DNA of 64,000 bases from the IMG/VR virus record IMGVR_UViG_3300031918_000006, positions 51,599 to 115,598 of that record; one strand, written 5' to 3'. Made by a program: the position numbers and the translations under genes. The notes under the pieces are model-generated. The model did no database searches, was not told the origin of the DNA, and saw nothing but the letters and a program-made list of their open reading frames with translations. Positions 23,642 through 64,000 of this stretch are shown here, one piece after another. Source of the DNA: a virus. Position 1 is the stretch's first letter. Each line of letters opens with the position of its first letter.

Positions 23642-23651
23642 ATCTAAATTT

Positions 23652-23684
23652 AAAAAAATAGCGAATCGGTTTCCCAATTCGCTA
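23652..23684 (-). terminator. intrinsic terminator after the 23696-24151 gene
   Basis: TAGCGAAT (23659-23666) pairs with ATTCGCTA (23677-23684), with extra GG/CC pairing inside. On the - strand it is followed by seven U residues (23658-23652). It marks a transcript end upstream of the pncB-nadE unit. Confidence 0.85.
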
Positions 23685-23695
23685 AAAAACATTAA

Positions 23696-24151: not shown

Positions 24152-24162
24152 GATCTTATTTT

Positions 24163-24881: not shown

Positions 24882-25323
24882 CATTAGCTTTTCTCCCATC
24901 GGTACCAGTATGGCCAAAGCCACCCTCGCCTCTTTCTGTTTCAGATAGTTCTACTGATTTTTCCCATTCTATTGACAAGACTTCAGCCCAAACAAGTTGA
25001 GCAATTCTATCTCCAGGATTAATTGTAAATGGATCTTTAGAGAGATTTACAAGAATTACTTTGATTTCTCCTCTGTAATCAGCATCTATGGTTCCTGGGC
25101 TATTTAAGACCGTTACACCATGTTTAAAAGCTATTCCAGACTTTGGTCTCACTTGTATCTCAGATCCCTTAGGAACCTCTACAAATAGACCTGTAGGAAT
25201 AGCAGCTCTCTCAAGCATACCTAAAATAATAGGTTCTGTAATATTGGCACTAACGTCCATTCCCGCTGCCCATCTAGTTTCATATCTAGGCAATGCATTA
25301 TCTGATTTGTTTATAATTTTCAT
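24877..25323 (-). CDS. dut: dUTP diphosphatase (trimeric dUTPase)
   Basis: 148 residues with all five trimeric dUTPase motifs in order: I AGMDVSANI, II RPKSGIAFKHG, III TVLNSPGTIDADYRGEI, IV GDRIAQLVW, V GEGGFGHTG. It hydrolyses dUTP to dUMP, which keeps uracil out of DNA and feeds ThyX. It starts on a 4-base overlap (ATGA) with thyX and lies directly downstream of it, a natural functional pair. Confidence 0.95.
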   Translation of the reverse strand: MKIINKSDNALPRYETRWAAGMDVSANITEPIILGMLERAAIPTGLFVEVPKGSEIQVRPKSGIAFKHGVTVLNSPGTIDADYRGEIKVILVNLSKDPFTINPGDRIAQLVWAEVLSIEWEKSVELSETERGEGGFGHTGTDGRKANG

Positions 25324-26342
25324 AACGGTTTTTGTATTAATTGTCTATATTGAATCCAACCTTTAAAATTTCCAGACCATAGATGACCTTTTGAGTCTGA
25401 ATGTGTAAATCCACTTCCTACTCCTAAATTATAATTACTAATTGTGGGAACTTGAGCACAATGTTCAAAAGGACTCATATGCTTATTTTCCAGTAAGTTA
25501 TCATGCAATTGAATATCTTTATGATAATCTATCTTTCCATCAAAATTATTGTAAGATGTTCTTGCACAACGTGCTGTAGCTACTTTAAGTTTTAATTCAT
25601 TTTCTAATGAACCATGCCAAATAGTAGTACCAGATGGTATATTTTCTCTAATAAAATCTTTTAAATTAATTCTATCACCAAATGGCATATGCCATTCTCC
25701 AAGTTTTAAGGACTTAGGAGTGCTTTCTATCATTGCATCATACATTGCTTCAGCTAAAGCTTGTATATGTATTTCTGCTCCAGAATGACTTAAGTTCCAC
25801 CATTCCCATTCATTTAATTCATAAGGAAGTGTATGTACTTTTTCTAATTCTTTTCTTGATTTATAAAAAACATCAGGTTCAGTATTTACTGCATATTTTG
25901 GACATCTTAATTCAAAGAATCCGCTAAATTCAGTAGCTGTTACCAGTACTTTATGCCATAAAAATGGCTCTAAAAGACGGTTACAAAGTTGTTTTGTTAT
26001 ATTACTTTCACTAAACTGTATTGCTGCTTTCAATGCTGATTCTTTTGCATTTATCCAACCCCAATAAGGACTATTTGGATTTTCTTTTCCTGGTAAATAT
26101 TCTGTACCTTGCATTCCAGAATGATCTTTTTGCCACGCAATTGGAATAAAAGGATCTTCTATTACAGATGCCACCATTTTATAAAATGGAATAGCTCTAG
26201 AAGAAGCACTATTTCTACTAAAAACTCTATGAGTCATTAGTTCCGAATGTATAAATCTCGGATATGTTAAAACATAAGTAGTGATCCTATCTCCCTTTGG
26301 GGACATAGAATCACATATTATTTCTGCATTTATTTTGTTCAT
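25320..26342 (-). CDS. thyX: flavin-dependent thymidylate synthase (long phage form)
   Basis: 340 residues from the ATG at 26342, which overlaps the nrdJ stop as TAATG. An ATG 9 bases upstream is possible. The ThyX signature is present as THRVFSRNSASSR (the RHRxxSxNxxSxR class) near residue 37. It is followed by the helical segments ending EPFLWHKVLVTATEFSGFFELRC, and by the ENKHMSPFEHCAQ motif near the C-terminus, which supplies further dUMP contacts. At 340 residues it is longer than cellular ThyX (~220), because of the insertions seen in the phage subgroup. It makes dTMP from dUMP using FAD and methylene-tetrahydrofolate. It lies between nrdJ and dut in one operon. Confidence 0.9.
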   Translation of the reverse strand: MNKINAEIICDSMSPKGDRITTYVLTYPRFIHSELMTHRVFSRNSASSRAIPFYKMVASVIEDPFIPIAWQKDHSGMQGTEYLPGKENPNSPYWGWINAKESALKAAIQFSESNITKQLCNRLLEPFLWHKVLVTATEFSGFFELRCPKYAVNTEPDVFYKSRKELEKVHTLPYELNEWEWWNLSHSGAEIHIQALAEAMYDAMIESTPKSLKLGEWHMPFGDRINLKDFIRENIPSGTTIWHGSLENELKLKVATARCARTSYNNFDGKIDYHKDIQLHDNLLENKHMSPFEHCAQVPTISNYNLGVGSGFTHSDSKGHLWSGNFKGWIQYRQLIQKPL

Positions 26343-32947: not shown

Positions 32948-34087
32948 TTAGAGAGCTAAAAGCTCAGCTTGTTTATCTTGTTGTTTCTTGATCTTTGCTT
33001 CAGAAAGAGAAATTGCTTCACTACGAAGTTTTTCCCATTCTTTAGTTGTATGAGCATCGTATTCAGATTCTCTGTAAAGATTCTTGTTTGGTGCAAATAC
33101 TGCAGAGTGTACAAAGTACTCTCTAACTTTTAAAGCATCGAAATTACCACCTCTATAGAAAGAAGCAATATTAGCAGGATCAACGAAACAGTTCATCAAA
33201 AGACGATCTGGTGCATCATATGCTTTAATGTAAGAAAGACCACCAATCCAAAGACCAGCAGACATGCTATCATTATTAGTATTTACTTCATTCCAATCTA
33301 AAGTATGGATCGCTCCAACTACGATACGATGTGCTTTCTCACCACCATTGATGGAAACTGGATCACATCCTTGTCCCATGATAGGTGGCTCAAGTGCATA
33401 ATCTTCAGCATAATCAGGTAATGTAATAGAAACTTTACCAGATTCTTCATCGTACACCTTAGTATAACGATCAACTCTTTCACCAGTTTCTTTATTAAAC
33501 TTAGTAAAGATAACTCTACCATATTTATAGGTAGAAATTAAACCAGTTTTAGTAAGAGACACATCACGGAAAGTAGAACGTTCTGTAGCAACTTCAGAGG
33601 ACAAGCCATCTTCAGTCATAAGACGTTCTTTTTCTTTATGGTCTACTACAGTAGTAGTTAGATAAGAAGCAAATCTCTCTGCTTTATCCTTAGTAAAATA
33701 AGGATTTCTTAAGAATCTTGTCCAAGCATAAACTACTGGCATGTAGTCAATTTTCTTTTCAATACTCTCGATGATCCAGTCAACCAAGATCTTAGGTACT
33801 GGAATAGAAGAGACTACTCCTCTACTTTTTAGGTAATAACGATTTGTTTTACTGTTAAAAACCAACTCTTTACAAGCAGTTGTTACAATTTCAGACACAG
33901 TTGTCTGTACCAATGGTAATGTAGCAGCTAAAACAGCTTGAGCTTCTTCCATGGTTTCAGCAGCTTCAAATGCAGTTTCCTGTACTTTAAGAGCAGCATA
34001 TAATTCATCTGTGAAAAGTACATTGTACTTTGTTTCACCAATAATTCCTGAGAGTCTATCTCCCAATTTGTTAATCAATAATTTCAT
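32948..34087 (-). CDS. rIIB-like protein
   Basis: 379 residues. The core NRYYLKSRGVVSSIPVPKILVDWI...YMPVVYAWTRFLRNPY matches the conserved block of phage rIIB-like proteins. This is a domain that reads a short peptide and is followed by 'L..RNP'. Immediately upstream (15 bases) is the rIIA-like ATPase, the same pairing as in T4 and in crAss-like phages. In T4 rIIA/rIIB protect against the RexAB exclusion system and associate with membranes and replication. The biochemical role is still unclear. It is the last gene before a terminator. Confidence 0.7.
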   Translation of the reverse strand: MKLLINKLGDRLSGIIGETKYNVLFTDELYAALKVQETAFEAAETMEEAQAVLAATLPLVQTTVSEIVTTACKELVFNSKTNRYYLKSRGVVSSIPVPKILVDWIIESIEKKIDYMPVVYAWTRFLRNPYFTKDKAERFASYLTTTVVDHKEKERLMTEDGLSSEVATERSTFRDVSLTKTGLISTYKYGRVIFTKFNKETGERVDRYTKVYDEESGKVSITLPDYAEDYALEPPIMGQGCDPVSINGGEKAHRIVVGAIHTLDWNEVNTNNDSMSAGLWIGGLSYIKAYDAPDRLLMNCFVDPANIASFYRGGNFDALKVREYFVHSAVFAPNKNLYRESEYDAHTTKEWEKLRSEAISLSEAKIKKQQDKQAELLAL

Positions 34088-34102
34088 TCTTTGTTTTTAA
34101 AT

Positions 34103-36742
34103 TTAACAACATAAATCAGGGTAATCCTTTTCAAGTCTATCCCTTTTAATTTCAATAATTTCTTTAATCTCCATAGCTAATGCTGGAGTAATTTTTGAAG
34201 AATAGTCATTTAAACAACTAATCTCCGAGAACAACACTCCAAATACGGAGTCAAAGTCAAGAACCCATTCTAATTTATCTAGAATAGTTTTTTCGAAAAC
34301 TTCCACATGAATGTAGTCATCATCTCCAAACTTTTCAATACATAATTTAGTGGCTTCTTCTAATCCTTCATTCAAGATAGAAGTTTGTACACTAATGCTA
34401 TTATCAAGGAAAGTCTTCCAGGCAGCAGGTAAAACACCGAATGTCTTATCCCACCCATATACTTTGTTGAAGTCATTAATATACTTAGTAATTTCCTCAT
34501 AAGTAGTTTTTAAAGTAACACTATGTTCCTCTAATTTAGTAAAATATTTATTTCTACCATTAATCTTATGAGATATCATTCTTGCAGTAAAGATTTTCTT
34601 TAATTCAGGACACAAAGTTTTACCTTCGGCTCCAAATAAATATTTCTCCACATGTGTATAGGATCTAAAATGTTTTTCAATCTGTTTAGAGATTATACAT
34701 ACTCTAGGGTTTCCTTTAAATGGCGTAGAAGCGTCATCAGTAAATCTTTTATCTTCCCTACTAATAACATATAAGAAATGTAGTAGAGGTAAATCTTCTT
34801 TAGTCCCATAGACTATAGTATCTGTGCAATCTTGTAAATCTGAGAGTTTCATTTCAGTTTTTGATGAAATTAATTGGGTATCCCCTTCAATTCTGGGATA
34901 CTGTATTAGAATTTTTCCGTTGAGTTTTCTAAGTTTATTATAGTCTATTTTTTCAGCAGGGACTGTTAAGTCCACTATGTCTTCAGAAACAACTTCTTCA
35001 TCATCGGGATCAGCGTCTGCTTTAAAACCAGCAGGGACTACTATGTTTTCATATAAAGGAAGATTCTGATCTAAAATAACAGATAAGAAATATAAACCAT
35101 TTGTATAGCTTTTAATTCTTTCTTTTAATTTATCTTTATCCTCAACTATACTTAGTAGTTTCATTAATGGAACTTGATCTACAGCTTCTTCATAAGTAAT
35201 GGTCTTTTCCATGAAATCTTTAACGATTTTTTTGTACTCATCTCCACTTCCTTTAGATGCTTTTATAATCAAATTGATCTTATCATCTTTACAGATATAT
35301 GCAGATTTAAGTACTTCAGAATGACCTGTTTGTACATAAACCTTAGCTAATTGTAATATATTAGAGGTATTAACGTCTTCATATTTCAATTTATTTACAT
35401 AGTCTCTTTTAACTGAGCTATATTCTCTAACTTTTTTAAGAGACTTAGTTTCAATATAAGAAGAATTTATCATAGCTGATAAAGTCTGACTATATTTAAT
35501 CTTAGTGTCCTTATATTTAAGAGATAAAGAACTAAAACCAGTAAGACTGGCAAGATTCGAGAGAATCTTAAGTTCCTTAGAAGCTCCATTATTCATGGTA
35601 TTGATAGCTGCACAATTTTGTGCCCAATCTATAAAACCTAACTTAGATAAAGTATCATTTATCAGTTTTTCAGAGGTTTTAGCAAGATTATCATATTTCA
35701 TGAGAATACCTTCTTTTGTCTTAGTATCCCACACACAAGATTCTCTAGACGGAGTAACAGTGATGTCCTCCATGTTTACTTTCAAACCTAAAGAACCATA
35801 TTTTTGATCTAATTCTAATTCCTGGAAATCAATAAAACCATAACATACACCACCAATGATAAGATGGGGACGTGAATAGTAATGTTGCTCTGCAAGAATA
35901 TAGTCTTCTGTTTCTTGTAAGATTGTAGCTTGAAAATTAATATCTTCTACCCAATCGGTATGTTTTACTACAAATTTAAGTGGATTCTTAAAGTATAGTA
36001 GTTGAGACTTTACAGCATCAATATAGTCTCGTTTTTGATGTTTTTTAACATCCCAAGAAATTTCAACAAAATTCTTTGCCTCAGTTTTCTTGTAATAAAC
36101 CACATATCCATTACTAAATGTGATAGAATCATTTAAGGTTCCATCTAAGTTCCATTTAGAATAACAATTATCAATCTTATCTTTGTAGATAAGAAAGTGG
36201 AATTCTTTACCGTTATGTGCGGTTTTTAAAGTGTAATAATCAACTCCCGTAGCAAGAGGTGATTTACAACCTAACCCAAAGGTTCCTAATGTTTTAGTAC
36301 TTAATCTTTTAGTACTGTATGATATTTTAAAATATCCTTCTAGTCTTTTTCCTCCAAGACCTACGCCATTATCTTTAATAATGACTTTATCTCTAAGTTC
36401 TGAACCACCAGTTTCTACATAAGTCATGTAGACATTATCATCATTTGAAAGATACTTTGCATCATAGTAATCTTTATCAAATCTACTATCCCTATAAATA
36501 TCTCCTTCTCTTTCTACATAGAATTCACCCATTCTTTCTGGGTGAGCAAGGAGTATTTTAGCAATGTTTCTTTCCGTGATTGAATCAATTGCATTACTAC
36601 AACTTTCCCTCATAGAACTCTTTACGGGAAACTGATAGATATAAATCTGCACTGTATCCAATAACAGTGATATTCCGGCTTCATCTATTTCCTTTCGGTA
36701 ACCAGATGACCCTTCAGTTATTTCTTGATTTAATACTGACAT
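34103..36742 (-). CDS. rIIA-like GHKL ATPase
   Basis: 879 residues. The N-terminal GHKL (HSP90/gyrase/MutL) ATPase fold is clear. MRESCSNAIDS is the N-box, with an Asn for Mg2+ (Bergerat motif I). IIKDNGVGLGGKRLEG is the G1 box, and TKTLGTFGLGCKSPLA is the G2 loop. The long remainder has no recognised domain. It pairs with the rIIB-like gene 15 bases downstream. In phages of this class the pair is thought to act against host exclusion or to influence DNA topology/replication. Only the ATPase fold is sequence-supported here. Confidence 0.75.
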   Translation of the reverse strand: MSVLNQEITEGSSGYRKEIDEAGISLLLDTVQIYIYQFPVKSSMRESCSNAIDSITERNIAKILLAHPERMGEFYVEREGDIYRDSRFDKDYYDAKYLSNDDNVYMTYVETGGSELRDKVIIKDNGVGLGGKRLEGYFKISYSTKRLSTKTLGTFGLGCKSPLATGVDYYTLKTAHNGKEFHFLIYKDKIDNCYSKWNLDGTLNDSITFSNGYVVYYKKTEAKNFVEISWDVKKHQKRDYIDAVKSQLLYFKNPLKFVVKHTDWVEDINFQATILQETEDYILAEQHYYSRPHLIIGGVCYGFIDFQELELDQKYGSLGLKVNMEDITVTPSRESCVWDTKTKEGILMKYDNLAKTSEKLINDTLSKLGFIDWAQNCAAINTMNNGASKELKILSNLASLTGFSSLSLKYKDTKIKYSQTLSAMINSSYIETKSLKKVREYSSVKRDYVNKLKYEDVNTSNILQLAKVYVQTGHSEVLKSAYICKDDKINLIIKASKGSGDEYKKIVKDFMEKTITYEEAVDQVPLMKLLSIVEDKDKLKERIKSYTNGLYFLSVILDQNLPLYENIVVPAGFKADADPDDEEVVSEDIVDLTVPAEKIDYNKLRKLNGKILIQYPRIEGDTQLISSKTEMKLSDLQDCTDTIVYGTKEDLPLLHFLYVISREDKRFTDDASTPFKGNPRVCIISKQIEKHFRSYTHVEKYLFGAEGKTLCPELKKIFTARMISHKINGRNKYFTKLEEHSVTLKTTYEEITKYINDFNKVYGWDKTFGVLPAAWKTFLDNSISVQTSILNEGLEEATKLCIEKFGDDDYIHVEVFEKTILDKLEWVLDFDSVFGVLFSEISCLNDYSSKITPALAMEIKEIIEIKRDRLEKDYPDLCC

Positions 36743-51344: not shown

Positions 51345-51574
51345 TATTTTTTACCTTTTAGATATTCTAGAGTTTCCTCTAACTGAGCTATATGGGTCTC
51401 ATCAAGAATCATTTCATCCCAATTTCCATACTTACTTTTATAACCACACACATATTTTAATCCTACCCATATTCTTTGAAATACATTACGATAGTTTACT
51501 AAATGGATTTGTACTACTACAAGTCCTTTATTCAAACTAACTACAATCTGGTGTTCCAGACTGCAACAACTCAT
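51344..51574 (-). CDS. small phage protein
   Basis: 76 residues from the ATG at 51574 (a start at 51601 is possible). It has the 'W.G.KY..GY.....WDE..L......L...L' arrangement (IWVGLKYVCGYKSKYGNWDEMILDE) of a widespread small phage family. It overlaps the metallophosphoesterase gene. No known function. Confidence 0.55.
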   Translation of the reverse strand: MSCCSLEHQIVVSLNKGLVVVQIHLVNYRNVFQRIWVGLKYVCGYKSKYGNWDEMILDETHIAQLEETLEYLKGKK

Positions 51575-52103
51575 CAATACTAAGTTTTTCTTCGTTTTCA
51601 TTTTTAAAAGTTTTAATGATGTGTTCTAAAGAAACAGGTGTGAAGCCATTTGCATCAACTCCAACATCATACCAATTATCATATGAATGATAAGGAATGA
51701 GTCTATGTAGATGTCCACACAAATATTTTTGTTTATTAAAATGATTAGCAGAGGCTTCTGCTGGATTATGTACTAAAATAAAATCATAACCATCTCCTAT
51801 TAAATGCAGTCTTTCACATACAGTTTGAAAACATTCGGTAGGAATATTCTTCGTTCTATCATGATTACCTTTTATTAATATTTTTATTCCATTTAATTGG
51901 TCAAAGATTTCTTTTATTTTAGCTTTATTATAAGACATGGAGATGTCTCCTATAATATATACTAAATCATCTGGACCTACTACTGAATTCCAATTATCAA
52001 TTAAAGTACGATTCATTTCTTCTACATAGTAAAATGGCCTGTTACAGTATTTTATAATGTTTAGATGACCAAAATGTTGGTCCGATGTAAAAAATATTTT
52101 CAT
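51537..52103 (-). CDS. calcineurin-like metallophosphoesterase
   Basis: 188 residues. The metal-ligand motifs are in order: SDQHFGH (DxH), IGDIS (GD), KGNHD (GNHD), ILVHNP (H) and CGHLH (GHxH). It would hydrolyse phosphodiesters or phosphomonoesters, so a nuclease, phosphatase or cyclic-dinucleotide phosphodiesterase role is possible. It overlaps the 52100-52426 gene by 4 bases. Compact and complete, with no signal peptide. Confidence 0.85.
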   Translation of the reverse strand: MKIFFTSDQHFGHLNIIKYCNRPFYYVEEMNRTLIDNWNSVVGPDDLVYIIGDISMSYNKAKIKEIFDQLNGIKILIKGNHDRTKNIPTECFQTVCERLHLIGDGYDFILVHNPAEASANHFNKQKYLCGHLHRLIPYHSYDNWYDVGVDANGFTPVSLEHIIKTFKNENEEKLSIDELLQSGTPDCS

Positions 52104-54084: not shown

Positions 54085-54109
54085 AAAAAGGAGGTATTAC
54101 CCTCCTTTT
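54085..54109. terminator. intrinsic terminator after the ferritin gene
   Basis: AAAAGGAGG (54086-54094) pairs with CCTCCTTTT (54101-54109) around a six-base loop. It is followed on the - strand by U's complementary to the A-run at 54084-54089. It overlaps the ferritin stop codon region and ends the accessory operon. Confidence 0.9.
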
Positions 54110-54662
54110 ATGCTAACTCTTTAATTCTATTATCCAAGATAATCATATCCTGAGTAAATTCAAATTGATCTAAAGCCGTAGTTTGTTTGTTTTCTTCTTC
54201 TCGCTGTTCGATCACTAAAGGTTGTATTGCATTAAAAGATATAAAATCTCCCTTCTCCATACAAACCCTACAAATGTTCAAGATCTTCTCAGTTGTTTCA
54301 ATTTCTCTTTGTAATGCAGCTTCATGTAAACTCTTCAATTGTGCAATTGGAGTTTCACCTTCGATTTTTAAATCCTGTTCCTCTAAAGCTGGTATTGTAA
54401 AATCATAATTAGATTCAACTAAGTGACTGTATACCAATTCAGAATGAACTAATTCTCCATCTGCTGCTGTTTTAAAATATATTGAATTTCCTGTTAATCC
54501 TCGTACATCGCACCAAGTGGACGCATTAAGATACAATAAATTGTTTTGCTTCTCATGTGCTACCTGCTTGATAAACAAATCTGCTACTTCCTCAGATAAA
54601 TAAGTGACTTTTCTTCGTTCTGTTATTTCTCCCATATTATAAATTTTTGTAAAGTTACTCAC
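54108..54662 (-). CDS. ferritin-like iron-storage protein
   Basis: 184 residues. Aligned by eye with bacterial non-heme ferritin. Helix A is VAHEKQNNLLYLNASTWCDVRGL, carrying the E17 equivalent and the 'LY...S.WC' motif. Helix B is GELVHSELVYSHLV, with the E50/H53 pair. Helix C is LQREIETTEKILNICR, with E94. Helix D is FNAIQPLVIEQREEENK, with the EQxEEE motif of E126/Q127/E130. All ferroxidase ligands of bacterial ferritins appear conserved. It could oxidise and store iron, protecting phage DNA or limiting host iron/oxidative stress. A phage-encoded ferritin is unusual. It is the last gene of the accessory operon. Confidence 0.8.
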   Translation of the reverse strand: MSNFTKIYNMGEITERRKVTYLSEEVADLFIKQVAHEKQNNLLYLNASTWCDVRGLTGNSIYFKTAADGELVHSELVYSHLVESNYDFTIPALEEQDLKIEGETPIAQLKSLHEAALQREIETTEKILNICRVCMEKGDFISFNAIQPLVIEQREEENKQTTALDQFEFTQDMIILDNRIKELA

Positions 54663-54685
54663 AAAAATAATAATATCAAAGAGAT

Positions 54686-55090
54686 TTAAGAGAAGAAAGG
54701 AAAAACTTTTCCGTGGTAATACACAACCTTTACTTCTTCTGCCATATCATCAAAGAAAGTATGAAGATAACCAAGAATTTCATCCTGGTATAACTTAACA
54801 GAATAAGTAGTTTTAAAGTCCGGGACTTTTTTCAGGTTCTTCAAATGTACAGTAAGACCATGTTTGCATGTCCTAAGTGTTCTTGAAGGGGCTGATGCAC
54901 GATACCCTTTAATCTTGGGGAACATCTCCAATTCTGCTTTTTCCTGTGGTGTTTTTTTATGCCACTCGGGGTTCTGTACGAATAAAGGAAGGCGTAAACC
55001 TTCACGTACCATCAAGGCATCATCCTTGGTATTAACTGGTGAAATCTCTGATTTTTTCTTCTCAGAGACTTTTTTAATTTCTGCGCTCAT
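54686..55090 (-). CDS. hypothetical protein of the accessory operon
   Basis: 134 residues. The N-terminus is Lys/Ser-rich and disordered (SEKKKSEISPVNTKDDA). The remainder is alpha/beta with LRTCKHGLTVHLKNLKK and a Phe/Tyr-rich end. Basic overall. No family. Between the kinase/propeller gene group and ferritin. Confidence 0.5.
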   Translation of the reverse strand: MSAEIKKVSEKKKSEISPVNTKDDALMVREGLRLPLFVQNPEWHKKTPQEKAELEMFPKIKGYRASAPSRTLRTCKHGLTVHLKNLKKVPDFKTTYSVKLYQDEILGYLHTFFDDMAEEVKVVYYHGKVFPFFS

Positions 55091-55112
55091 TACTAAGTGT
55101 CTTTAGGTGTTG

Positions 55113-55436
55113 TTAAAACAATAAATCGATGTTTATAGGTTCTCCATCTTCGCACATTTTTATAGCTGTCTTAACGATAGTTACAACATCTGCACGTGAA
55201 TACCTTTGTGGGACTGGGACATGAATTGCCACTGTTTGATCTACTAATCTCCTTATAGGTTTCCCTTCAGAATCCACTTCTATTTCAAAATGGTCTCCTG
55301 CTTTAAAAGTACCTAAAGTTAAAGAATTAGAAACTGTGCTTCTAAAATCTTCTGGAGATAAGATAACTTTATCAGCTTCATCTACCCCATACAGTTTATG
55401 CCCGTCTACTACAACAAGCATTAATTTTTTTCTCAT
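55113..55436 (-). CDS. hypothetical protein of the accessory operon
   Basis: 107 residues, mostly beta with one helix (MRKKLMLVVVDGHKLYGV, GDHFEIEVDSEGKPIRRLVDQ). It lies 4 bases from the kinase gene, so the two are likely co-translated. No motif recognised. Confidence 0.5.
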   Translation of the reverse strand: MRKKLMLVVVDGHKLYGVDEADKVILSPEDFRSTVSNSLTLGTFKAGDHFEIEVDSEGKPIRRLVDQTVAIHVPVPQRYSRADVVTIVKTAIKMCEDGEPINIDLLF

Positions 55437-55440
55437 ATAT

Positions 55441-57108
55441 TTATTTTTTATTTGTCAAGTAAACGCTAGTAGGATTAACAATAATAATACCAGCATTACA
55501 ACAATGAATTACACTATTTTCTGACACTTCACTACACTGAAATTCATCCAATATAGACATGTCCAAACTTCTCATTAAGACAAGTTTATCATCTTGGGGG
55601 ACAACAATAATATCGTTGTTTAAAGTGTCATAGTATCTCAAACCTAAGAAATTACAATCAAAAAATTCAACTTGTAAGTTTTTAATAGAGAATACTTTAT
55701 ATATAATCTTGTCACTTTCAAGATATTCTACAATACCTGTTTGACCTGATTGTACTAAATTCTTTATTCTTTTCTGTAAGACTACTGAATTTAATGTGCC
55801 TTTCTCGTAAAATATTACAGATGAATCTGCTACTCTTTGAAAAAGACCATCAATATTGGTAAATCCCCCACCATATACATTATGTGATTGCATAGCAACT
55901 TGATGATTAAATATACTATTTAAAGTAAAATGAAATCTCATGTTATCTGTAACAATTATTAAAGTATCTCCAAATTGTCTTGATTTAAGCTTACCTAAAT
56001 GAGAAAATTCTTTAACCATATAATGTGTTTTATAATCACCATCTGCATAATAAAGAACTAAGTCTCTTAACAGTAAGAAATTATCATTAGAGGAAAAGAA
56101 TATAAGATCCTTAGATTCTGCTCTAAAAGAATGCATCACTCTGTAATTACCCTTTATAGAACAATCATAAATAATAGTAACTCCATTGTTTGTTATGGCT
56201 AATCTAGTTTTACTACTCGCACTTTTTGTTATTAAACCTCTAGTTATCTCTTTCATAATCAATTGATCAGTTTTAACGATGATCTGTGGGTTTACTAGTA
56301 TGTTGTGTTGTTGTGTTGTTAGTATATTAAGTTGAATAATGAATCTATTCCCCTTAACAAACAGCTCCATGAACTGATCAAAGAGTGCAATGTTAGTAAT
56401 GGGTTGATAACATTTTGGAATAATAACATCCTTATCATTCATTACAGTGAGTTTTTTAATCATTCTCTCTGCAATACTTAGCACCTTTTTGTTCACTCCT
56501 TTAAAAGGGTGGATATAAGTGAGTAAATTAAAAATAATTAATCCTATAGAAAAATAGTCAGCTTTAATACTAACAGTTCCACTATAAAGATAATCTCTAA
56601 TTTCATCAAATAATAAACCAGAGTGTTTACAGTTTGGTGTTTCATATGAGTCCACATCTATTAAATAAACAGAGCCAGATTCATTTACAAGTATATTATA
56701 AGGATTATAATCTCCAATGATTATGTTCTTACTATGTGCAAATTTCATTGCATCTATGAGCTTCTCAGCTATGTTTAACTTGACTTTGTCAGAGATATTT
56801 TCTCTGATACAAAAAGTTTTATTAAAAAGTGAGAGAATTGGATAGTGATCAGATGGTACTTTATTCATGGTAAATCCTAAGATTTTACCCTTAGAGTCAT
56901 AAACAAGTTTTTCTGGCTTAACAAAGATGTTGCTCTTTAATTCAGCCAAATCATTGAACTTAATTTCAGTAATGGTCTTTATACCAGGTAGGTATAGCTT
57001 CACTACTTCAATTCCATTATCAATAATCATACCTTCTCCACCTCTTGCAATCTCTTTTGAAGTATCGAGATCTACAATTAAAACTTTTTGTTTATTATAG
57101 AGTTTCAT
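55441..57108 (-). CDS. eukaryotic-like protein kinase fused to a beta-propeller-like domain (TerY-P type)
   Basis: 555 residues. ARGGEGMIIDNGIEVVKLY is the glycine-rich loop and the ATP-anchoring Lys37. HSKNIIIGDYNPYNILV is the catalytic loop with D133 and N138, and YLIDVDSYETP is the Mg-binding Asp segment in place of DFG. After the kinase lobe (~res 1-260) comes a ~280-residue part with repeated short beta hairpins such as FSSNDNFLLLRDLVLYYADGD and YKVFSIKNLQVEFFD, suggesting a beta-propeller sensor. This gene, the PP2C and the vWA protein form the kinase-phosphatase-vWA triad of TerY-P modules. It is separated from PP2C by two small genes and overlaps 57095-57376 by 14 bases. Confidence 0.8.
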   Translation of the reverse strand: MKLYNKQKVLIVDLDTSKEIARGGEGMIIDNGIEVVKLYLPGIKTITEIKFNDLAELKSNIFVKPEKLVYDSKGKILGFTMNKVPSDHYPILSLFNKTFCIRENISDKVKLNIAEKLIDAMKFAHSKNIIIGDYNPYNILVNESGSVYLIDVDSYETPNCKHSGLLFDEIRDYLYSGTVSIKADYFSIGLIIFNLLTYIHPFKGVNKKVLSIAERMIKKLTVMNDKDVIIPKCYQPITNIALFDQFMELFVKGNRFIIQLNILTTQQHNILVNPQIIVKTDQLIMKEITRGLITKSASSKTRLAITNNGVTIIYDCSIKGNYRVMHSFRAESKDLIFFSSNDNFLLLRDLVLYYADGDYKTHYMVKEFSHLGKLKSRQFGDTLIIVTDNMRFHFTLNSIFNHQVAMQSHNVYGGGFTNIDGLFQRVADSSVIFYEKGTLNSVVLQKRIKNLVQSGQTGIVEYLESDKIIYKVFSIKNLQVEFFDCNFLGLRYYDTLNNDIIVVPQDDKLVLMRSLDMSILDEFQCSEVSENSVIHCCNAGIIIVNPTSVYLTNKK

Positions 57109-57376
57109 TGAGATAAACTATTTTATCAAGAGCATCTTCTCTATTTTTCTTATTAAGAAAAATATATTGCTGATTATCATTATTCCAACCATCCCAGATT
57201 TTATCTGAGTCTTTGTAGATAATAATAGTAGGTAAATCCGGAGTACTTTTAATAAGTTCATCAATGACATTTTCAATATCATTAGTTAAAGATCTTCCTG
57301 CATCTAGATCTTCTAAACACAGTATACGATGTCCTTTATGTACTACTATTTCTGAGGTGTATTTACATTTTACCAT
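57095..57376 (-). CDS. small hypothetical protein within the kinase/phosphatase module
   Basis: 93 residues, alpha/beta (GHRILCLEDLDAGRSLTNDI, LPTIIIYKDSDKIWDGWNND). It overlaps the kinase start by 14 bases. Possibly an adaptor of the module. There is no recognised motif. Confidence 0.55.
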   Translation of the reverse strand: MVKCKYTSEIVVHKGHRILCLEDLDAGRSLTNDIENVIDELIKSTPDLPTIIIYKDSDKIWDGWNNDNQQYIFLNKKNREDALDKIVYLNETL

Positions 57377-57386
57377 TTTCTTTTTA

Positions 57387-57713
57387 TTAAATTTTTTTTG
57401 GTTCTCCCATCAACACATCAAGTTCAGGGGGATTAGACGGAGTGTCTTTTATTTCATCCTTAAATATGAAATCTATAGCCTCTTCTAAACTATATTTAGA
57501 AGGAATTTCCCAATTCCAACGTCTATTTACCATATGATAAAAGTTCCAAGAACTATAATATTTAGTAAATATACATTTAGGAGGTTCAATGTTACTTCTT
57601 TTACAATCTTTGTTTATTTGAATAAGAAACTGTGTTTCAATTTCTTCTTCTTCTGTAACAGCTATATATTCACCATCTTTAAATATTAGATAATATTCAT
57701 AGTCAGTTTTCAT
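57387..57713 (-). CDS. small hypothetical protein within the kinase/phosphatase module
   Basis: 108 residues: YYLIFKDGEYIAVTEEEEIETQFL is beta-rich and Glu-dense. It is followed by WNFYHMVNRRWNWEIPSKYSL and a Pro-rich tail. It overlaps PP2C by 4 bases. No family known, but its place between PP2C and the kinase suggests a linker role. Confidence 0.5.
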   Translation of the reverse strand: MKTDYEYYLIFKDGEYIAVTEEEEIETQFLIQINKDCKRSNIEPPKCIFTKYYSSWNFYHMVNRRWNWEIPSKYSLEEAIDFIFKDEIKDTPSNPPELDVLMGEPKKI

Positions 57714-58420
57714 AATATAAATCTTACTATAGACAAATCATCATAGTTAGAATATCCTTCTTTTAAAAGCATATTATATTTTCTAGCTAACATAGCTTCA
57801 CTTTTTATTAGAGTTTCCTCATAAAGTAAAGATTCTATTACTCTTGAACTAACATCTTTCTTTTCTTTGTCCGTGAAGGAATAAATTCCATCTGAACAAA
57901 TTGAAAAAGTCTTTTGCATTTCAAAAGTATACTCTTTAGTAGATAAAAGAGCTTCCTCAATACTATTTAAATGGTAAGCTAAATAATCAGGAGCATTACC
58001 AGGACTTTCAATTTTAGTTTCTTCAGCGCTTTTTCCATCACTTATATAGAAACATCCATCTCCTGAGACTAATACAAAGACTCGCCCATCTCGTATAACT
58101 GTTAAAATCACTGTAGAAAGCAATTCTAAAGGATCTAGATATAAAGAGGTTTTTACTTCATTTAAGGAATGATATAAACTTTTAAAAATGCTTCTACCAA
58201 TTCCTTCTAAAGACCACTCCTTATATATAGGAAAAAGATTATTACAGTAAGCATTTAAAATTTTATTGTATAGTGTTGAGACAAAATGACTTTTAATTCC
58301 AGTACTACATCCATCAAAGACGGCTCCAATATAAGTGTTGCCATCATTAAAAGTGAACAGATCATCTTCGCAATTTACGTGATGATCTGCTCCTCTTTTA
58401 AGTAAGGTTCTAACTTCCAT
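57710..58420 (-). CDS. PP2C-like protein phosphatase
   Basis: 236 residues. PP2C motifs in order: NCEDDLFTF (ED at residues 18-19), GAVFDGCSTG, VLVSGDGCFYI, FSICSDGIYSFTD and NYDDLSIVRF. These supply the conserved metal-binding aspartates of PP2C-type Ser/Thr phosphatases. At 236 residues it is close to the minimal PP2C. It starts on the last base of the vWA gene. In TerY-P modules such a phosphatase counteracts the neighbouring kinase. Confidence 0.85.
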   Translation of the reverse strand: MEVRTLLKRGADHHVNCEDDLFTFNDGNTYIGAVFDGCSTGIKSHFVSTLYNKILNAYCNNLFPIYKEWSLEGIGRSIFKSLYHSLNEVKTSLYLDPLELLSTVILTVIRDGRVFVLVSGDGCFYISDGKSAEETKIESPGNAPDYLAYHLNSIEEALLSTKEYTFEMQKTFSICSDGIYSFTDKEKKDVSSRVIESLLYEETLIKSEAMLARKYNMLLKEGYSNYDDLSIVRFIL

Positions 58421-59103
58421 TAGAAGCTGGTAGTAATGGGATTAGCACCAGATGAAGATTTAGAAATTGAAGAGCTGATAAAGCTAATCATTTTCTTAAT
58501 TTCTGCACCGGTATTTCCAACTACAGCAAGATGTTGAAATCCCATATCCTGTTGTGCTCTTTTGAATGAACTATCACTTCCTACTCCGAAGAGGATAGTA
58601 GTGAATGAAAAAGCATTGGCCTCTTTAGATGTAATATCTTCTAAGGTTTTTTTGATTACAGTTGGACGACATCTGCTGGAATTATCTTCACCATCGGTGA
58701 TACAGAATATCAATGTTTTCACATTAATACCAGATTGCTCAAGTGTATCACGATAATCTACAGCATTTTTAATACCATAAGCAACACCGTCATACAAAGC
58801 TGTACCGCCACCTTGTGGTACAAAGTTAATAACAGGTACTCCGGCAATTGGTTGAAATCCACTTCTTACTTTAACTTGGTGGTCAAACTCAATGATTGAG
58901 ACTAAAAGTCTATCACTGATATGAGATTGCTGCATTGTTTGAATAAAATCATTGAAAGCAGCATTAAAATCTTTTGCATAACTAGCAACTGATGGTGATA
59001 TATCAATTACAAATACAGCATTGACTGTTTCTTCTACCTGAATTAAATCAGTATCTACGTTATGGAAATCCAAGTGGATATCCAGATCATCTAAATCTTC
59101 CAT
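58420..59103 (-). CDS. von Willebrand factor A-domain protein, TerY-like
   Basis: 227 residues. The MIDAS motif is DISPS (D34, S36, S38). GGGTALYDG supplies the Thr, and ITDGEDNSS supplies the late Asp. The protein is little more than a vWA domain, of the TerY type. In TerY-P modules it is the substrate or scaffold controlled by phosphorylation. It shares one base with the PP2C gene, so the pair is translationally coupled. The triad context strongly supports TerY-like identity. Confidence 0.85.
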   Translation of the reverse strand: MEDLDDLDIHLDFHNVDTDLIQVEETVNAVFVIDISPSVASYAKDFNAAFNDFIQTMQQSHISDRLLVSIIEFDHQVKVRSGFQPIAGVPVINFVPQGGGTALYDGVAYGIKNAVDYRDTLEQSGINVKTLIFCITDGEDNSSRCRPTVIKKTLEDITSKEANAFSFTTILFGVGSDSSFKRAQQDMGFQHLAVVGNTGAEIKKMISFISSSISKSSSGANPITTSF

Positions 59104-59114
59104 TTCTTTTAAAA

Positions 59115-59954
59115 TTAAAGGGTTACATCAACTGATTTAATAAATTCAATGCCCATTGCTTTTGCACTTGCATAGGTAGCATCTCCTAGGAATCCTAGGC
59201 CAGGTACATCAGACATACAGTCCTCAAGAATAACAAATTTCTTTGCTAAAGTTGGAAATTGCATAGCTTGTCGTAATGTGTTTGCAACACAATGACTCTT
59301 AGCTTCTCCTGCAAAATATACTTTTTCAAATTTTTCCAATTTGTGTATAAGGTTTGCATTTAGCTGAGTTTCAGGATGTCCTTCAACTGGCACGTTAGCA
59401 CGAAAAGCACCAAAATGTTCAGTAAGAGGCCATGTGCCTTTGGTTACTACTTGGTGAAACTCACCTTTAGCACGACACCAAGACTCAACAGACAAGATAA
59501 CTTCTGGCATAATGGCAGCACCGGGACTTCCAATGATACAATGTTCTGGCCAAATATAATGAGGAAATTCTCCTTGTTTTTCCAATTCTGCTACATAAGC
59601 TGTGGCTTCTTTTGGATAATACTTTGGAGTCCACTTGCCTGCTAAGATATCAGCAGAAGTGATTTGTGTGAAAGGGCCTGGTAAATTACCGTCCTTATCT
59701 TGCCAGAATCCCGGATGTGATATGTCTATCACTTGATGAGAGTCCATGGTTAAACCGATGTAATCAATCTCAGCTAAATTTTTAGCTATAAAATTTCCTA
59801 CACGAGCCATATCGTTTTCAGCTCCAGGAACATACAAAGATCCTACCGGTCTTACTTGAATAGTTATTCCATCTTTATCCAGTATACTTTCACCTGGATC
59901 ACAAAAATCGACTTGTGCGTCGATAATCAGCAAAGCATTCTTTGTTCTTTTCAT
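59115..59954 (-). CDS. pncA: nicotinamidase / isochorismatase-family cysteine hydrolase
   Basis: 279 residues. LIIDAQVDF carries the catalytic Asp. TMDSHQVIDISH supplies metal-binding Asp/His/His. WPEHCIIGSPGAAI is the W-x2-H-C loop of nicotinamidases, TKGTWPLTE the catalytic Lys region, and VYFAGEAKSHCVANTLRQA the catalytic Cys. These match PncA better than generic isochorismatases because the metal site and the WPxHC loop are present. It would convert nicotinamide to nicotinate, the substrate of the PncB encoded at 22029-23180. The family has members with other amidase activities, so substrate is inferred from context. Confidence 0.8.
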   Translation of the reverse strand: MKRTKNALLIIDAQVDFCDPGESILDKDGITIQVRPVGSLYVPGAENDMARVGNFIAKNLAEIDYIGLTMDSHQVIDISHPGFWQDKDGNLPGPFTQITSADILAGKWTPKYYPKEATAYVAELEKQGEFPHYIWPEHCIIGSPGAAIMPEVILSVESWCRAKGEFHQVVTKGTWPLTEHFGAFRANVPVEGHPETQLNANLIHKLEKFEKVYFAGEAKSHCVANTLRQAMQFPTLAKKFVILEDCMSDVPGLGFLGDATYASAKAMGIEFIKSVDVTL

Positions 59955-59971: not shown

Positions 59972-60157
59972 TCAACAATAATTCTCATATCCACATTCTG
60001 TGCAAGTATAGTATGTTTTATGACTATCATAACTAGATTCAATCATATCTTTATGAGGACAAGCTGTTTGTATAGCTTTAATAGCTTTTTTTAGAACATC
60101 TTCCCTTTTAGCAAGAGTTATCAGTTCCTCATTCCAGGCTTTTATTAGTACATTCAT
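59972..60157 (-). CDS. small Cys-rich zinc-binding protein
   Basis: 61 residues. Helical N-terminus (IKAWNEELITLAKREDVLKKAIKAIQ), then CPHKDMIESSY...YYTCTECGYENYC: a C-x-H and C-x2-C arrangement suited to one zinc ion. Lies 17 bases from the nicotinamidase gene and appears to head the accessory operon. Confidence 0.6.
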   Translation of the reverse strand: MNVLIKAWNEELITLAKREDVLKKAIKAIQTACPHKDMIESSYDSHKTYYTCTECGYENYC

Positions 60158-60169
60158 TTTTTTTACAAT

Positions 60170-60198
60170 AAAAAATCCCCAGCTTGTGGCTGAGGATT
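60170..60198 (-). terminator. intrinsic terminator after the 60202-60381 gene
   Basis: AATCC (60174-60178) pairs with GGATT (60194-60198), with a CAGC/GCTG inner stem. On the - strand U's follow. It separates the zinc-ribbon unit from the accessory operon. Confidence 0.8.
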
Positions 60199-60811: not shown

Positions 60812-60817
60812 TGTGTG

Positions 60818-60889
60818 TGGCGATAGTAGGATTTGAACCTACGACCAGAGGCCTATGATGCCCCTGCTCTACCACTGAGCTATATCGCT
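60818..60889 (-). tRNA. tRNA with CAT anticodon (Met or Ile2)
   Basis: 72 nt. Acceptor AGCGATA/TATCGCC (first pair A-C mismatched). D arm GCTC-AGTGGTA-GAGC, anticodon stem GGGGC/GCCTC with loop ATCATAG, and T arm GTAGG-TTCAAAT-CCTAC. A second CAT tRNA beside the first. One of the two may read AUA after lysidine modification. Confidence 0.85.
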
Positions 60890-61100: not shown

Positions 61101-61114
61101 AATAATTAAATTTG

Positions 61115-61186
61115 TGCAGGATGTCGGGTTCGAACCGCGTTTTCTGATTGGAAGTCAGACACTTTACCAATTAAGCTACACCCTGC
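61115..61186 (-). tRNA. tRNA-Gly (TCC)
   Basis: 72 nt. Acceptor GCAGGGT/ATCCTGC, D loop TTAATTGGTAAAGT, anticodon stem-loop TCTGA-CTTCCAA-TCAGA (anticodon TCC), T arm GCGG-TTCGAAC-CCGA. The canonical T loop is intact. Confidence 0.88.
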
Positions 61187-61925: not shown

Positions 61926-62444
61926 TTAATGCCCCAATATTCTAGCTATTGCTAGTCTAACTAAAGGAGCTTGACCAAAAGCCAGATTCTTTTCTTTTAT
62001 AGAAATTACATCTGCTTTACACCACTCAACATCTGATGTTTCATCTGTGATGGTAACTTTTGGTAATTCTTTTTTCTCAAACAAATATGCACTGCCAATT
62101 GAAACGTTCTGGCGATTACCAGTTGGGTCTGAGTGTACGTATACATTTGGATATACTGTCATTTCACCATCTCCTTTTGTGAAAGGTTCTTGTGCATTTA
62201 CATCAAATCCAGTTTCTTCCCTAATTTCTCTTGCAGTAGCTTCTTCCAAGGTTTCATCCCAATCAAGATAACCACATGGTAAACACCACCTTCCGGGCAT
62301 GTCTTCCATACTCTCAGCTCTCTTTGTCAATAGCACATATAATTCTTTTTTAAAGATTACAAAAACTATGCCAGTTACAGCTACACTTCTAGAATGCCAG
62401 ATGATTCCATCTTCTGTTTTGTATGCTTTATTAGGTCTGCTCAT
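61926..62444 (-). CDS. Nudix hydrolase
   Basis: 172 residues. The Nudix box is GYLDWDETLEEATAREIREETGF (Gx5Ex7REUxEExGU), preceded by MPGRWCLPCG. VLLTKRAESMEDMPGRWCLP is the usual strand and loop before the box. It hydrolyses a nucleoside diphosphate linked to another moiety. Possible substrates are NADH, ADP-ribose, capped RNA or damaged dNTPs. Given the pncA-pncB-nadE genes, an ADP-ribose/NAD role is worth testing. It lies 3 bases from the tandem-repeat protein gene, probably in the same transcript. Confidence 0.9.
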   Translation of the reverse strand: MSRPNKAYKTEDGIIWHSRSVAVTGIVFVIFKKELYVLLTKRAESMEDMPGRWCLPCGYLDWDETLEEATAREIREETGFDVNAQEPFTKGDGEMTVYPNVYVHSDPTGNRQNVSIGSAYLFEKKELPKVTITDETSDVEWCKADVISIKEKNLAFGQAPLVRLAIARILGH

Positions 62445-62447
62445 ATT

Positions 62448-64000
62448 TTAAATTTTTGGTACATCAATTAAAATAACTTTGATTTCATCTTTTTTAGGTT
62501 CTTCTGGTTTAAAAAAAGGACTGGCATAAGGAAATCCAGAGATGGCCCAATCATAGGACACTTCGAATCCTAAAGGAGTGATTTTACGTTCACCTAAAAA
62601 AGAGTCTTTTATTGAATCATAAATAGATTCAGAGAGCACTTTTTCTTCCTCATATAATTTAAATGATTTTTCTCCTATAAAACCATCAAAGTGACCATTT
62701 TTGGTATTACCAATAGCAGGAGATACTTTATATCCAGCTTCACCATTATATCTACCAATTTCAGTAATAGTCACTAATTTACCTAGTTCACTGTCTTTAA
62801 TCCCACTTCCAGGCCATACTGTTTCTACTAGATCACCTACTTTAAATTTATATGGGTACTTTGGAATTGAAAATTCAGTGACATTAAAAGGTTTTTCTAA
62901 GAAGTTATATTTTGAAATCTCAGATGAAGTAGCATATCTCCATGCTAATAAATCATCAGATAAGTCAAACATTAATCCGGAATGACCATTACTAGTATCA
63001 CCTGATAAGTCTTTACAAGGTCTTAGATAAGGATGATTTTCTCTTACTTTAAAACAATAATTTACTTTTGCACAATCAGTACAAACAGAAGTCAACTCTA
63101 AAATAACTATATAATCACCTTTTTTAGGCATAATTACAGTTTTAATTTGAGTAACATCATAAGGTTTACCTATCCTGTTGTATTCTTTGATTTCTTCTTC
63201 TGAGGCAAATCTCCATTTTTTCAATTTGCTAGATAAATCATAACACATAGTAGTAGTACCACTAGCCATTTGTCCAAATAAGTCTACATAAGGTCTAATA
63301 AAGGAATGAGCTTCACGTATTTTAAAACAGTAATTCATTTTTCCACAATATGTTGTGCCAAAATCACCTTCTAAAGTTACTATATAATCATCCTTTTTAG
63401 GAAAACCTTTTTTTAAATCAAAAACATTGTAAGGTTTTCCAAGTCTATCATATTCTGTAATCTCTTCTGGTGTAGCAAATCGCCACTCTAATAAATAATG
63501 TTGTAGATCCCAAGACATATAATCATGTCCATTGTTAGTAGAGCCTCTTAAATCTATGCATGGATATACTCCTACATTTGTTGTTCTTAATTTAAAACAA
63601 TAATTATTTCTGCCACAATTATGAGTTTGATCTGTGACTCTTACAGTAACAATATAATCTCCTGCTGTAGGAGTGTTTTTAATATTAGTAATATCGAATG
63701 GTTTTTTGAGTCTATCGTATTCTGCTATCTCAATATCAGTTGCATATCTCCATTCTTTAAGATCTCTTGATAAATCCCAAGACATTTGAGCATGACCATT
63801 ACCATTACTACCATGCAAATCAACACTAGGTCTTAAATAAGAAGTAGAATCTCTAACTTTAAAGCAATAATTTTCTTTTCCACAACTTCCTTCAATAAAA
63901 TTACCTTTTACAGTAACTATATAGTCACCTCTTGCAGGATATTTAATTGCAGTAAATAGTTTAAAAACTACTGTGGGATAACTATAATGATTAGACGTGT
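62448..64000 (-). CDS. tandem ~90-residue repeat protein (5'-truncated by window edge)
   Basis: The frame is open from the right edge to the stop at 62448. The apparent start at 63818 is a TTG inside a repeat, so the real start lies outside. About 517 residues are visible. Consecutive ~90-residue repeats share DYIVT (at about 63905, 63660, 63390 and 63115), a C-x3/5-NYCFK-x-R core, RP-x-DL-x-G, NGH-x-x-MSWDL and WR-x-AT-x-x-EI-x-EYDRLGKP. The C-terminus adds an SH3-like module (KFKVGDLVETVWPG) and a Pro-rich tail. Two Cys per repeat (CGRNNYC-like) could form disulfides or bind metal. No known family that I can name. It may be a surface or host-interaction protein. Confidence 0.6.
   Translation of the reverse strand, partial: TSNHYSYPTVVFKLFTAIKYPARGDYIVTVKGNFIEGSCGKENYCFKVRDSTSYLRPSVDLHGSNGNGHAQMSWDLSRDLKEWRYATDIEIAEYDRLKKPFDITNIKNTPTAGDYIVTVRVTDQTHNCGRNNYCFKLRTTNVGVYPCIDLRGSTNNGHDYMSWDLQHYLLEWRFATPEEITEYDRLGKPYNVFDLKKGFPKKDDYIVTLEGDFGTTYCGKMNYCFKIREAHSFIRPYVDLFGQMASGTTTMCYDLSSKLKKWRFASEEEIKEYNRIGKPYDVTQIKTVIMPKKGDYIVILELTSVCTDCAKVNYCFKVRENHPYLRPCKDLSGDTSNGHSGLMFDLSDDLLAWRYATSSEISKYNFLEKPFNVTEFSIPKYPYKFKVGDLVETVWPGSGIKDSELGKLVTITEIGRYNGEAGYKVSPAIGNTKNGHFDGFIGEKSFKLYEEEKVLSESIYDSIKDSFLGERKITPLGFEVSYDWAISGFPYASPFFKPEEPKKDEIKVILIDVPKI

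Follow-up and report, generated by a model that had tools for sequence, protein, structure and literature searches.

TerY-P triads were reportedly described by Anantharaman et al. in 2012, and triads of this kind are widespread, although to our knowledge neither their input nor their target is established. As described in one report, the triad consists of a TerY-like vWA protein, a PP2C phosphatase and a Ser/Thr kinase encoded in one operon, and the kinase carries a C-terminal zinc ribbon or, in a variant, an OB fold (PMC11090510). In Escherichia coli the order vWA-PP2C-kinase is found in yegL-pphC-yegI, where the first two genes overlap shortly and yegJ (DUF2314), on the opposite strand, parts pphC from yegI. 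A further phage-borne kinase/phosphatase module, the KKP kinase-kinase-phosphatase of P. aeruginosa prophages, has two kinases, and the accessible part of its report mentions neither a vWA protein nor a nicotinamidase (PMC11341870). Phages also resynthesize NAD+ from nicotinamide, either through NARP1 (Adps/Namat, PMC12774641) or by NadV-NadM/NadR salvage (PMC9503650). No earlier description of a nicotinamidase-linked vWA/PP2C/kinase cassette was found in the literature searched.

The window analysed here is a stretch of 64,000 nucleotides from a gut-type phage, whose terminase bore out the earlier assignment of the genome as crAss-like. This terminase was missed by Pfam PF03237 and was found with PHROGs. 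The genes of the unit under study all lie on the minus strand, and they are listed below in their predicted 5′ to 3′ order together with the flanking hairpins.

60174–60198, minus strand: terminator-like hairpin 5′ of the unit, with TTTTT after a 10-bp stem
59115–59954, minus strand: predicted nicotinamidase, a PncA-type isochorismatase-fold hydrolase; first conserved cassette gene
58420–59103, minus strand: vWA protein with complete MIDAS and conserved Ser-rich C-terminal stretch (phrog_7371, E=9e-16)
57710–58420, minus strand: PP2C-family protein phosphatase (Pfam PP2C_2, E=1e-8)
57387–57713, minus strand: 108-aa ORF between PP2C and kinase, no family, not conserved
57095–57376, minus strand: 93-aa ORF between PP2C and kinase, no family, not conserved
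55441–57108, minus strand: YegI-like Ser/Thr kinase with predicted C-terminal propeller-like domain (Pkinase, E=1e-8, over the gathering score)
55113–55436, minus strand: 107-aa ORF 3′ of the kinase after a 4-nt gap, in the same predicted unit
54686–55090, minus strand: 134-aa ORF with weak similarity to group I intron endonucleases (TIGR01453, E=0.005, far below the cut-off)
54108–54662, minus strand: ferritin, which closes the predicted unit (PF00210, E=4e-13)
54086–54109, minus strand: terminator-like hairpin directly 3′ of ferritin, 9-bp stem followed by a T-rich tail

Family matches and ORF coordinates placed the vWA, PP2C, kinase and ferritin genes where the preliminary description had put them, while the small ORFs proved to number four and not three. 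Its proposal of one transcription unit ending in ferritin agrees with the hairpin-bounded unit predicted here, but the start lies further upstream of the vWA gene, at 59954 or 60157, so that the nicotinamidase gene is included. In the region, 11 terminator-like hairpin sites were seen against 3.4 expected.

We then compared the triad proteins across 80 distinct cassette copies, in which catalytic residues were about 100% conserved. The vWA protein has a complete MIDAS (DxSxS...T...D; D34-S36-S38, T101 and D137) and a Ser-rich C-terminal stretch (S210, S212, S214 and S217), with 86–100% conservation of the MIDAS and Ser positions. As had been proposed, this MIDAS-type protein overlaps the phosphatase: the PP2C start shares one base with the vWA stop codon (TAATG). 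The PP2C residues D19, D36G37, G120D121G122, D177G178 and D227D228 were all 100% conserved. In the kinase domain (residues 1–255) the catalytic residues K37, D133, N138 and D151 are in place and 98–100% conserved. The C-terminal domain (residues 277–554), for which a propeller had been suggested, showed 28 strands in the predicted structure, and Foldseek matched it to CORVET/Vps, Nup159 and WD40 proteins, which are known propellers, supporting its prediction as a propeller-like domain. The model has a pLDDT of 89.5, and because its pTM is 0.53 the arrangement of the kinase domains is uncertain.

Profile comparison matched the cassette proteins to E. coli YegI (99%), YegL (94%) and PphC (93%), although of YegI only the kinase domain aligned and its C-terminal part did not. 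The TerY-like MIDAS vWA, the adjoining PP2C gene and the Ser/Thr kinase are shared with TerY-P. However, the kinase carries the propeller-like domain in place of a zinc ribbon or OB fold; paired CxxC motifs occurred in 0 of 79 cassette kinases. The neighbours also differ, being NAD+ genes rather than Ter or restriction genes, and TerD was present in 1 of the 46 cassette records searched. Membership in the Ter group was rejected on these two counts. The TerY-P designation given earlier thus stands for the Yeg-like profile matches and the gene order but not for the zinc ribbon or the Ter neighbours, and on sequence grounds the cassette resembles TerY-P/YegL-PphC-YegI. Nor is it the bare, compact triad first described, although all three members are there: it is a tetrad, with a nicotinamidase that both TerY-P and the E. 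coli operon lack. The two small ORFs between PP2C and kinase were considered as YegJ analogues, but searches gave them neither a family match nor a homologue in the other loci compared; homologues of the 107- and 134-aa ORFs were likewise absent from the other cassette loci compared.

The nicotinamidase gene lies 11 nt upstream of the vWA gene and had not been part of the triad in the preliminary description. Alignment with E. coli PncA revealed the Asp-Lys-Cys catalytic triad (D12, K172, C222) and the DxH...H...H metal site (D71, H73, H80, H138), all invariant in the 80 distinct copies, and the profile match to E. coli PncA was 98.9%. The AlphaFold model (pLDDT 93.5) gave nicotinamidases as its best 19 PDB matches in Foldseek, with TM-scores up to 0.80 by target length, and biuret and triuret hydrolases appeared lower down the list. 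The protein is longer than E. coli PncA (279 versus 213 aa), with insertions relative to it, and it did not reach the curated PncA equivalog NF008623 (36.4 bits, cut-off 174). Judged by sequence and model, the product is a predicted nicotinamidase with an intact active site that belongs to a divergent PncA subfamily. Among 50,697 phage records this type of nicotinamidase occurred in only 4, and in all 4 it adjoined the kinase and vWA genes. Bacteria also use it without the triad, so that catalysis does not depend on the latter; of 62 bacterial members found apart from a complete cassette, 22 have a nicotinate phosphoribosyltransferase (NaPRT) gene no more than 1 kb away, for example in NrtR-pncA-pncB-nadE operons.

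The core gene order, which had been thought possibly new, recurs in dozens of phages. The 80 distinct copies with nicotinamidase-vWA-PP2C-kinase in that order comprised 64 from virus records and 16 from bacterial or archaeal contigs, and strict order was found in 74 viral loci. Searching from the kinase side gave 80 phage loci, with the nicotinamidase in 77, all four genes in 73 and strict order in 66. Profiles were required to reach these relatives, as a single-sequence kinase scan of IMG/VR returned no matches. The distance matrices of the four proteins correlated with r=0.75–0.87, above every one of 1000 shuffles, and gene order and all active sites were kept at 20–40% kinase identity. Some phages have larger gaps and inserted genes inside the cassette; in locus L003, for example, the vWA and PP2C genes flank a 592-aa ORF with HNH-like sequence. 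In some copies the order is preserved even across insertions that part the genes by kilobases. In the tree, viral and cellular copies are intermixed, with at least 6 label changes. These results showed that nicotinamidase-vWA-PP2C-kinase is a conserved four-gene unit.

The recurrent neighbours of this unit are NAD+ synthesis genes, namely NaPRT, NadE, NadD and NrtR-type Nudix genes. The Preiss-Handler route runs from nicotinamide through nicotinate, NaMN and NaAD to NAD+, and the window holds the following further genes.

61926–62444, minus strand: Nudix hydrolase, 2 kb 5′ of the nicotinamidase gene (PF00293, E=5e-18; NtrR model, E=1.6e-5)
22029–23180, minus strand: NaPRT (PncB), for the second salvage step from nicotinamide (TIGR01514 equivalog, score of 328.5 bits against a cut-off of 269.55; also found in the whole-record search)
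21160–22032, minus strand: NAD+ synthetase NadE, last step (TIGR00552, 124.8 bits, cut-off 63.65; also found in the whole-record search)

The pncB and nadE genes overlap by 4 nt and lie 36 kb away from the cassette. TIGR00482 gave no match for NadD in the 115.6-kb record, which may be incomplete; the phage is thus predicted to encode three of the four enzymes of the route from nicotinamide, NadD being the missing one. In the crAss-like relative MT835470 a classical pncA-pncB-nadE set is contiguous, whereas our phage retains pncB-nadE, with the cassette nicotinamidase standing in for the classical PncA. Bacterial NrtR-pncA-pncB-nadE operons (locus L108) have the same nicotinamidase subfamily and the same downstream enzymes but lack vWA, PP2C and kinase. 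In place of NrtR the phage has its short Nudix protein, which by family comparison groups with the NrtR-type Nudix proteins that adjoin cassettes in bacteria and is too short for their DNA-binding domain. Full-length NrtR-type regulators stand beside 8 of 18 bacterial cassettes, and 1 of the 18 has NaPRT on its own strand no more than 9 kb away.

Enrichment of NAD+ genes was assessed from record counts and from position within the same genomes, the set of cassette-free large phages sought through two terminase searches consisting mostly of short fragments. NaPRT was present in 24/45 cassette records and NadE in 25/45, versus 20/50,697 and 43/50,697 phage records by tblastn; about half of the cassette records, many of them fragments, show no NaPRT or NadE. 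PF03237 marked 13 of the 45 and was not used to exclude records. Of 24 records, 11 had NadE no further than 10 kb from the cassette (2.1 expected; reached in 0 of 20,000 simulations), and of 22 records, 8 had NaPRT at such a distance (2.2 expected; 17 of 20,000).

We lean towards reading the locus as a NAD+ salvage cassette of Preiss-Handler type, to which the triad is linked and whose activity would be regulated by phosphorylation. The kinase and PP2C may together determine how far the vWA protein, with its Ser-rich tail S210–S217 as the best candidate site, or the nicotinamidase is phosphorylated. The MIDAS vWA could serve as an adaptor, dependent on Mg2+, by which the nicotinamidase or a complex of NAD+ enzymes is held or gated, and the propeller-like domain might sense or dock the input. 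With the missing NadD step supplied by the host, the outcome would be NAD+ resynthesis, switched on in infection, from nicotinamide freed by NAD+ consumption, including that by host NADase immune effectors. Because the cassette is met again in dozens of large phages and in some bacteria, often beside other NAD-making genes, these phages may have a NAD+ supply that can be switched in infection. NAD+ is a main battleground of bacterial immunity, and a regulated viral NAD+ pathway would bear on the survival of NADase defences by large phages. More tentatively, large phages, crAss-like and huge ones among them, could possess a third, Preiss-Handler-type route of NAD+ reconstitution, in which a vWA adaptor would let reversible Ser/Thr phosphorylation gate the entry enzyme, as a signal-responsive switch that restores NAD+ once the NADase immunity of the host is triggered; the module would have been repeatedly exchanged with bacteria, where it would be part of NrtR-linked NAD+ regulation. 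Nicotinamidase, NaPRT and NadE tied to a kinase, a phosphatase and a vWA protein differ from NARP1 and NadV-NadM/NadR, and point to a large-phage NAD+ supply beyond these systems covered by the literature searched. Order, co-evolution and neighbourhood tie a TerY-P-related triad to one defined NAD+ salvage reaction, providing concrete substrate candidates.

Homology of the triad to YegI/YegL/PphC is also compatible with a TerY-P-like defence or superinfection-exclusion module that senses and blocks competing phages, in which case the nicotinamidase would be a metabolic accessory. In P. aeruginosa, TerY-P triads give protection from phages (PMC10889362), a TerY-P-like module whose kinase has an OB fold is a stand-alone antiphage system (PMC11090510), and for Ter genes in jumbo phages a role against superinfecting phages was proposed (PMC7824862). 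We consider this unlikely here: no nuclease or other effector is conserved next to the cassette, NAD+ enzymes and not restriction genes recur as its neighbours, TerD is as rare as noted above, and the PADLOC matches were to generic kinase and PP2C models only. It is less probable still that the enzyme acts on a different amide or on a nucleotide immune signal and that the triad controls that reaction. The isochorismatase fold does span several amidases, the biuret and triuret hydrolases in the Foldseek list among them, and the insertions relative to PncA would suit another substrate, but every nicotinamidase catalytic and metal ligand is kept, the closest structural matches are nicotinamidases, and the bacterial homologues sit in pncA-pncB(-nadE) operons.

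We give an equally low chance to a passenger cassette, a NAD-linked unit from bacteria transferred as a whole, whose triad and nicotinamidase have no joint function in the phage. The intermixed tree and the gaps and inserted genes of some phages fit such a passenger, yet neutral passengers would have decayed, whereas order and active sites persist at the kinase divergence given above and order survives kilobase insertions in some copies. A switch for host stress or iron control, put forward in the preliminary description, is very improbable. Ferritin does lie within the same predicted transcription unit, but it is not conserved, and the iron switch was rejected for this reason: it was absent from the 10 nearest cassette records searched, neither it nor the small ORFs had a homologue among the other cassette loci compared, and no other iron gene was recurrent beside the cassette. 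Among the nearest cassette carriers, ferritin is specific to the source phage.

The gene unit of the window phage runs on the minus strand from 59954 to 54108 with intergenic gaps of −14 to 23 nt, and is bounded by two terminator-like hairpins (60198-60174 and 54109-54086). Profile searches revealed that the parts named in the preliminary description, a TerY-P-like kinase/PP2C/vWA triad with a ferritin, were all real, and that the first gene of the unit, a nicotinamidase-like enzyme at 59115-59954, had been overlooked. The unit comprises:

59972-60157, 61-aa ORF, possible first gene of the unit
59115-59954, minus strand, nicotinamidase-like enzyme, first gene of the conserved cassette
58420-59103, minus strand, vWA protein
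57710-58420, minus strand, PP2C phosphatase
between PP2C and kinase, minus strand, two small ORFs
55441-57108, minus strand, kinase
between kinase and ferritin, minus strand, two small ORFs
54108-54662, minus strand, ferritin, last in the unit

Just upstream lie tRNA-Met(CAT) (60817-60889) and tRNA-Gly(TCC) (61114-61186), and 62448-63818 encodes a protein of 456 aa in which a unit of ~90 residues occurs in three or four imperfect copies, with no homologue in the loci searched.

A tblastn search with the three triad proteins of the window phage, with inspection of the loci, recovered the triad in one fecal contig and in huge phages with genomes of 462-595 kb, in every case with the same nicotinamidase-like enzyme ahead of the vWA gene. 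A profile of the enzyme then gave 80 IMG/VR loci and 80 genome loci. When these were scored with four protein profiles, the order was exactly enzyme-vWA-PP2C-kinase in 74 viral loci and rearranged in others. All four genes stood within 13 kb in 100 loci, and by kinase sequence 80 of these are distinct copies (64 from virus records and 16 from genome contigs). Neither the small ORFs nor the ferritin of the window phage had a homologue in the cassette loci retrieved for comparison, and no ferritin was found in the 10 nearest cassette records searched. Since some IMG/VR records may be plasmids or parts of chromosomes mis-called as viruses, the number of records sets a ceiling on the number of phages; those carriers that encode a phage terminase, and the phages with genomes of 462-595 kb, are secure. 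The converse scan with a kinase profile yielded 80 IMG/VR loci, with the enzyme in 77 and all four genes in 73; because the two locus sets share contigs and the kinase profile was made from cassette members, they show a single association from two sides and are not independent. Furthermore, pairwise distances of the four proteins were correlated (0.75-0.87), exceeding all 1000 shuffles. In a 485-kb phage (L003, 4030-5808), an ORF of 592 aa that contains repeats and HNH-like sequence is inserted between the vWA and PP2C genes, and kilobase gaps occur at cassette gene borders in several other phages. A calcineurin-like phosphoesterase (window 51537-52103) has members of its family close to the cassette in 10 viral loci.

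Alignment with E. coli PncA showed that the catalytic Asp, Lys and Cys and the full set of four metal ligands are retained in the window enzyme; these residues were 100% conserved across 80 distinct cassette copies. The first 19 PDB matches of its AlphaFold model (pLDDT 93.5) were all nicotinamidases, and the enzyme fell far under the NCBIfam PncA cut-off. Among bacterial members outside the full cassette, 22 of 62 lay within 1 kb of a nicotinate phosphoribosyltransferase (NaPRT) gene on the same strand, some in the order NrtR-pncA-pncB-nadE. The cassette enzyme is predicted, from alignment and model, to be a nicotinamidase, and it belongs to a divergent subfamily.

We found that the most frequent cassette neighbours, when all surrounding genes were clustered and the cassette's own members set aside, include Nudix proteins, NaPRT, NAD+ synthetase (NadE) and NadD, the last three named from sequence and profile searches. 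Whole-record searches of 45 cassette records found NadE in 25, NaPRT in 24 and a NadD-like match in 19 (7 above cut-off). Among 50,697 phage records, tblastn with the window phage's own proteins detected NadE in 43 and NaPRT in 20; the two methods are of unequal sensitivity, and the ratio is indicative only. Within single genomes, 11 of 24 records had NadE no more than 10 kb from the cassette (2.1 expected by chance; reached in 0 of 20,000 simulations), and 8 of 22 had NaPRT at such a distance (2.2 expected; 17 of 20,000). The window phage carries overlapping genes for both, each above the curated cut-off:

22029-23180, NaPRT
21160-22032, NadE

Its crAss-like relative MT835470 (L312) has a contiguous classical pncA-pncB-nadE operon at 22908-25928, in which a 192-aa nicotinamidase directly precedes NaPRT and NadE. 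No nicotinamidase occupies the corresponding slot in the window phage, where the cassette enzyme, at a distance of 36 kb, stands in for it. Full-length NrtR-type Nudix proteins flank 8 of 18 bacterial cassettes. By sequence motifs, genes resembling those for NMN adenylyltransferase, NAD+ synthetase and NaPRT lie opposite the cassette in one Rhodoferax contig, and in a Lloydbacteria contig (L152, 12402-16442) the cassette is followed by a second, classical nicotinamidase and NadD-like, NaPRT-like and ADP-ribosylglycohydrolase-like genes, a putative dense NAD+/ADP-ribose locus.

The triad itself gave profile matches to E. coli YegI (99%), PphC (93%) and YegL (94%), whose genes stand in the same order, yegL-pphC-yegI. 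The kinase has its catalytic residues in YegI-like form (GDxNxxN and DxDS), and a zinc ribbon, which is fused to the kinase in TerY-P, was found in none of 79 kinase copies. The last 280 residues of the kinase were modelled with 28 strands, the number expected from seven four-stranded blades if blades are counted from strands, and Foldseek matches included CORVET/Vps, Nup159 and WD40 proteins; with a low pTM (0.53), the model does not fix how the two domains are placed relative to each other. In addition to a complete MIDAS, the vWA protein has near its end a Ser-rich stretch (S210, S212, S214 and S217, 90-100% conserved in 80 distinct copies) that is the most obvious candidate phosphorylation site.

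Judged by their sequences, the parts of the window phage support a predicted NAD+ salvage route from nicotinamide, for which the host would supply the NadD step. A parsimonious role for the triad would be control of the first salvage step, or of a complex of NAD+ enzymes, via reversible phosphorylation, possibly triggered by the level of NAD+ or ADP-ribose, by NADase immunity or by the stage of infection. The main rival is a TerY-P-like defence role for the cassette, and TerY-P has demonstrated antiphage activity (PMC10889362). TerY-P and its variants (PMC11090510), Ter genes in jumbo phages (PMC7824862), viral NAD+ systems (PMC9503650) and NARP1 (PMC12774641) have been described. Neither the nicotinamidase-triad cassette nor a phage Preiss-Handler pathway was found described by full-text literature search or in the available portions of these four papers; PMC10607447 tabulates a gut-phage nicotinamidase without further comment.

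Viral and cellular copies were intermixed, with at least six label changes, in a tree built from nicotinamidase, vWA and kinase domain, and the window copy grouped with three fetched loci (L009, L013 and L011) and LR756500, beside a Bacteroidota copy. The nearest fetched homologues of the window NaPRT and NadE were in a Marinilabiliaceae contig, LR756500 being equally near for NadE. A Bacteroidota host is likely on these sequence relationships. The window makes up the final 64 kb of a virus record of 115.6 kb whose terminase and portal match PHROGs. The terminase is nearest to that of a 117-kb fecal phage (44%), followed by those of crAss-like phages (about 28%), so the crAss-like assignment in the preliminary description was reasonable. 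This crAss-like genome also carries an rIIA/rIIB-like pair at 32948-36742 (the rIIB match being weak). The FAD-dependent thymidylate synthase ThyX may be split or interrupted in this phage: two ORFs (24163-24627 and 25320-26351), which flank a dUTPase ORF, match one part of it each.
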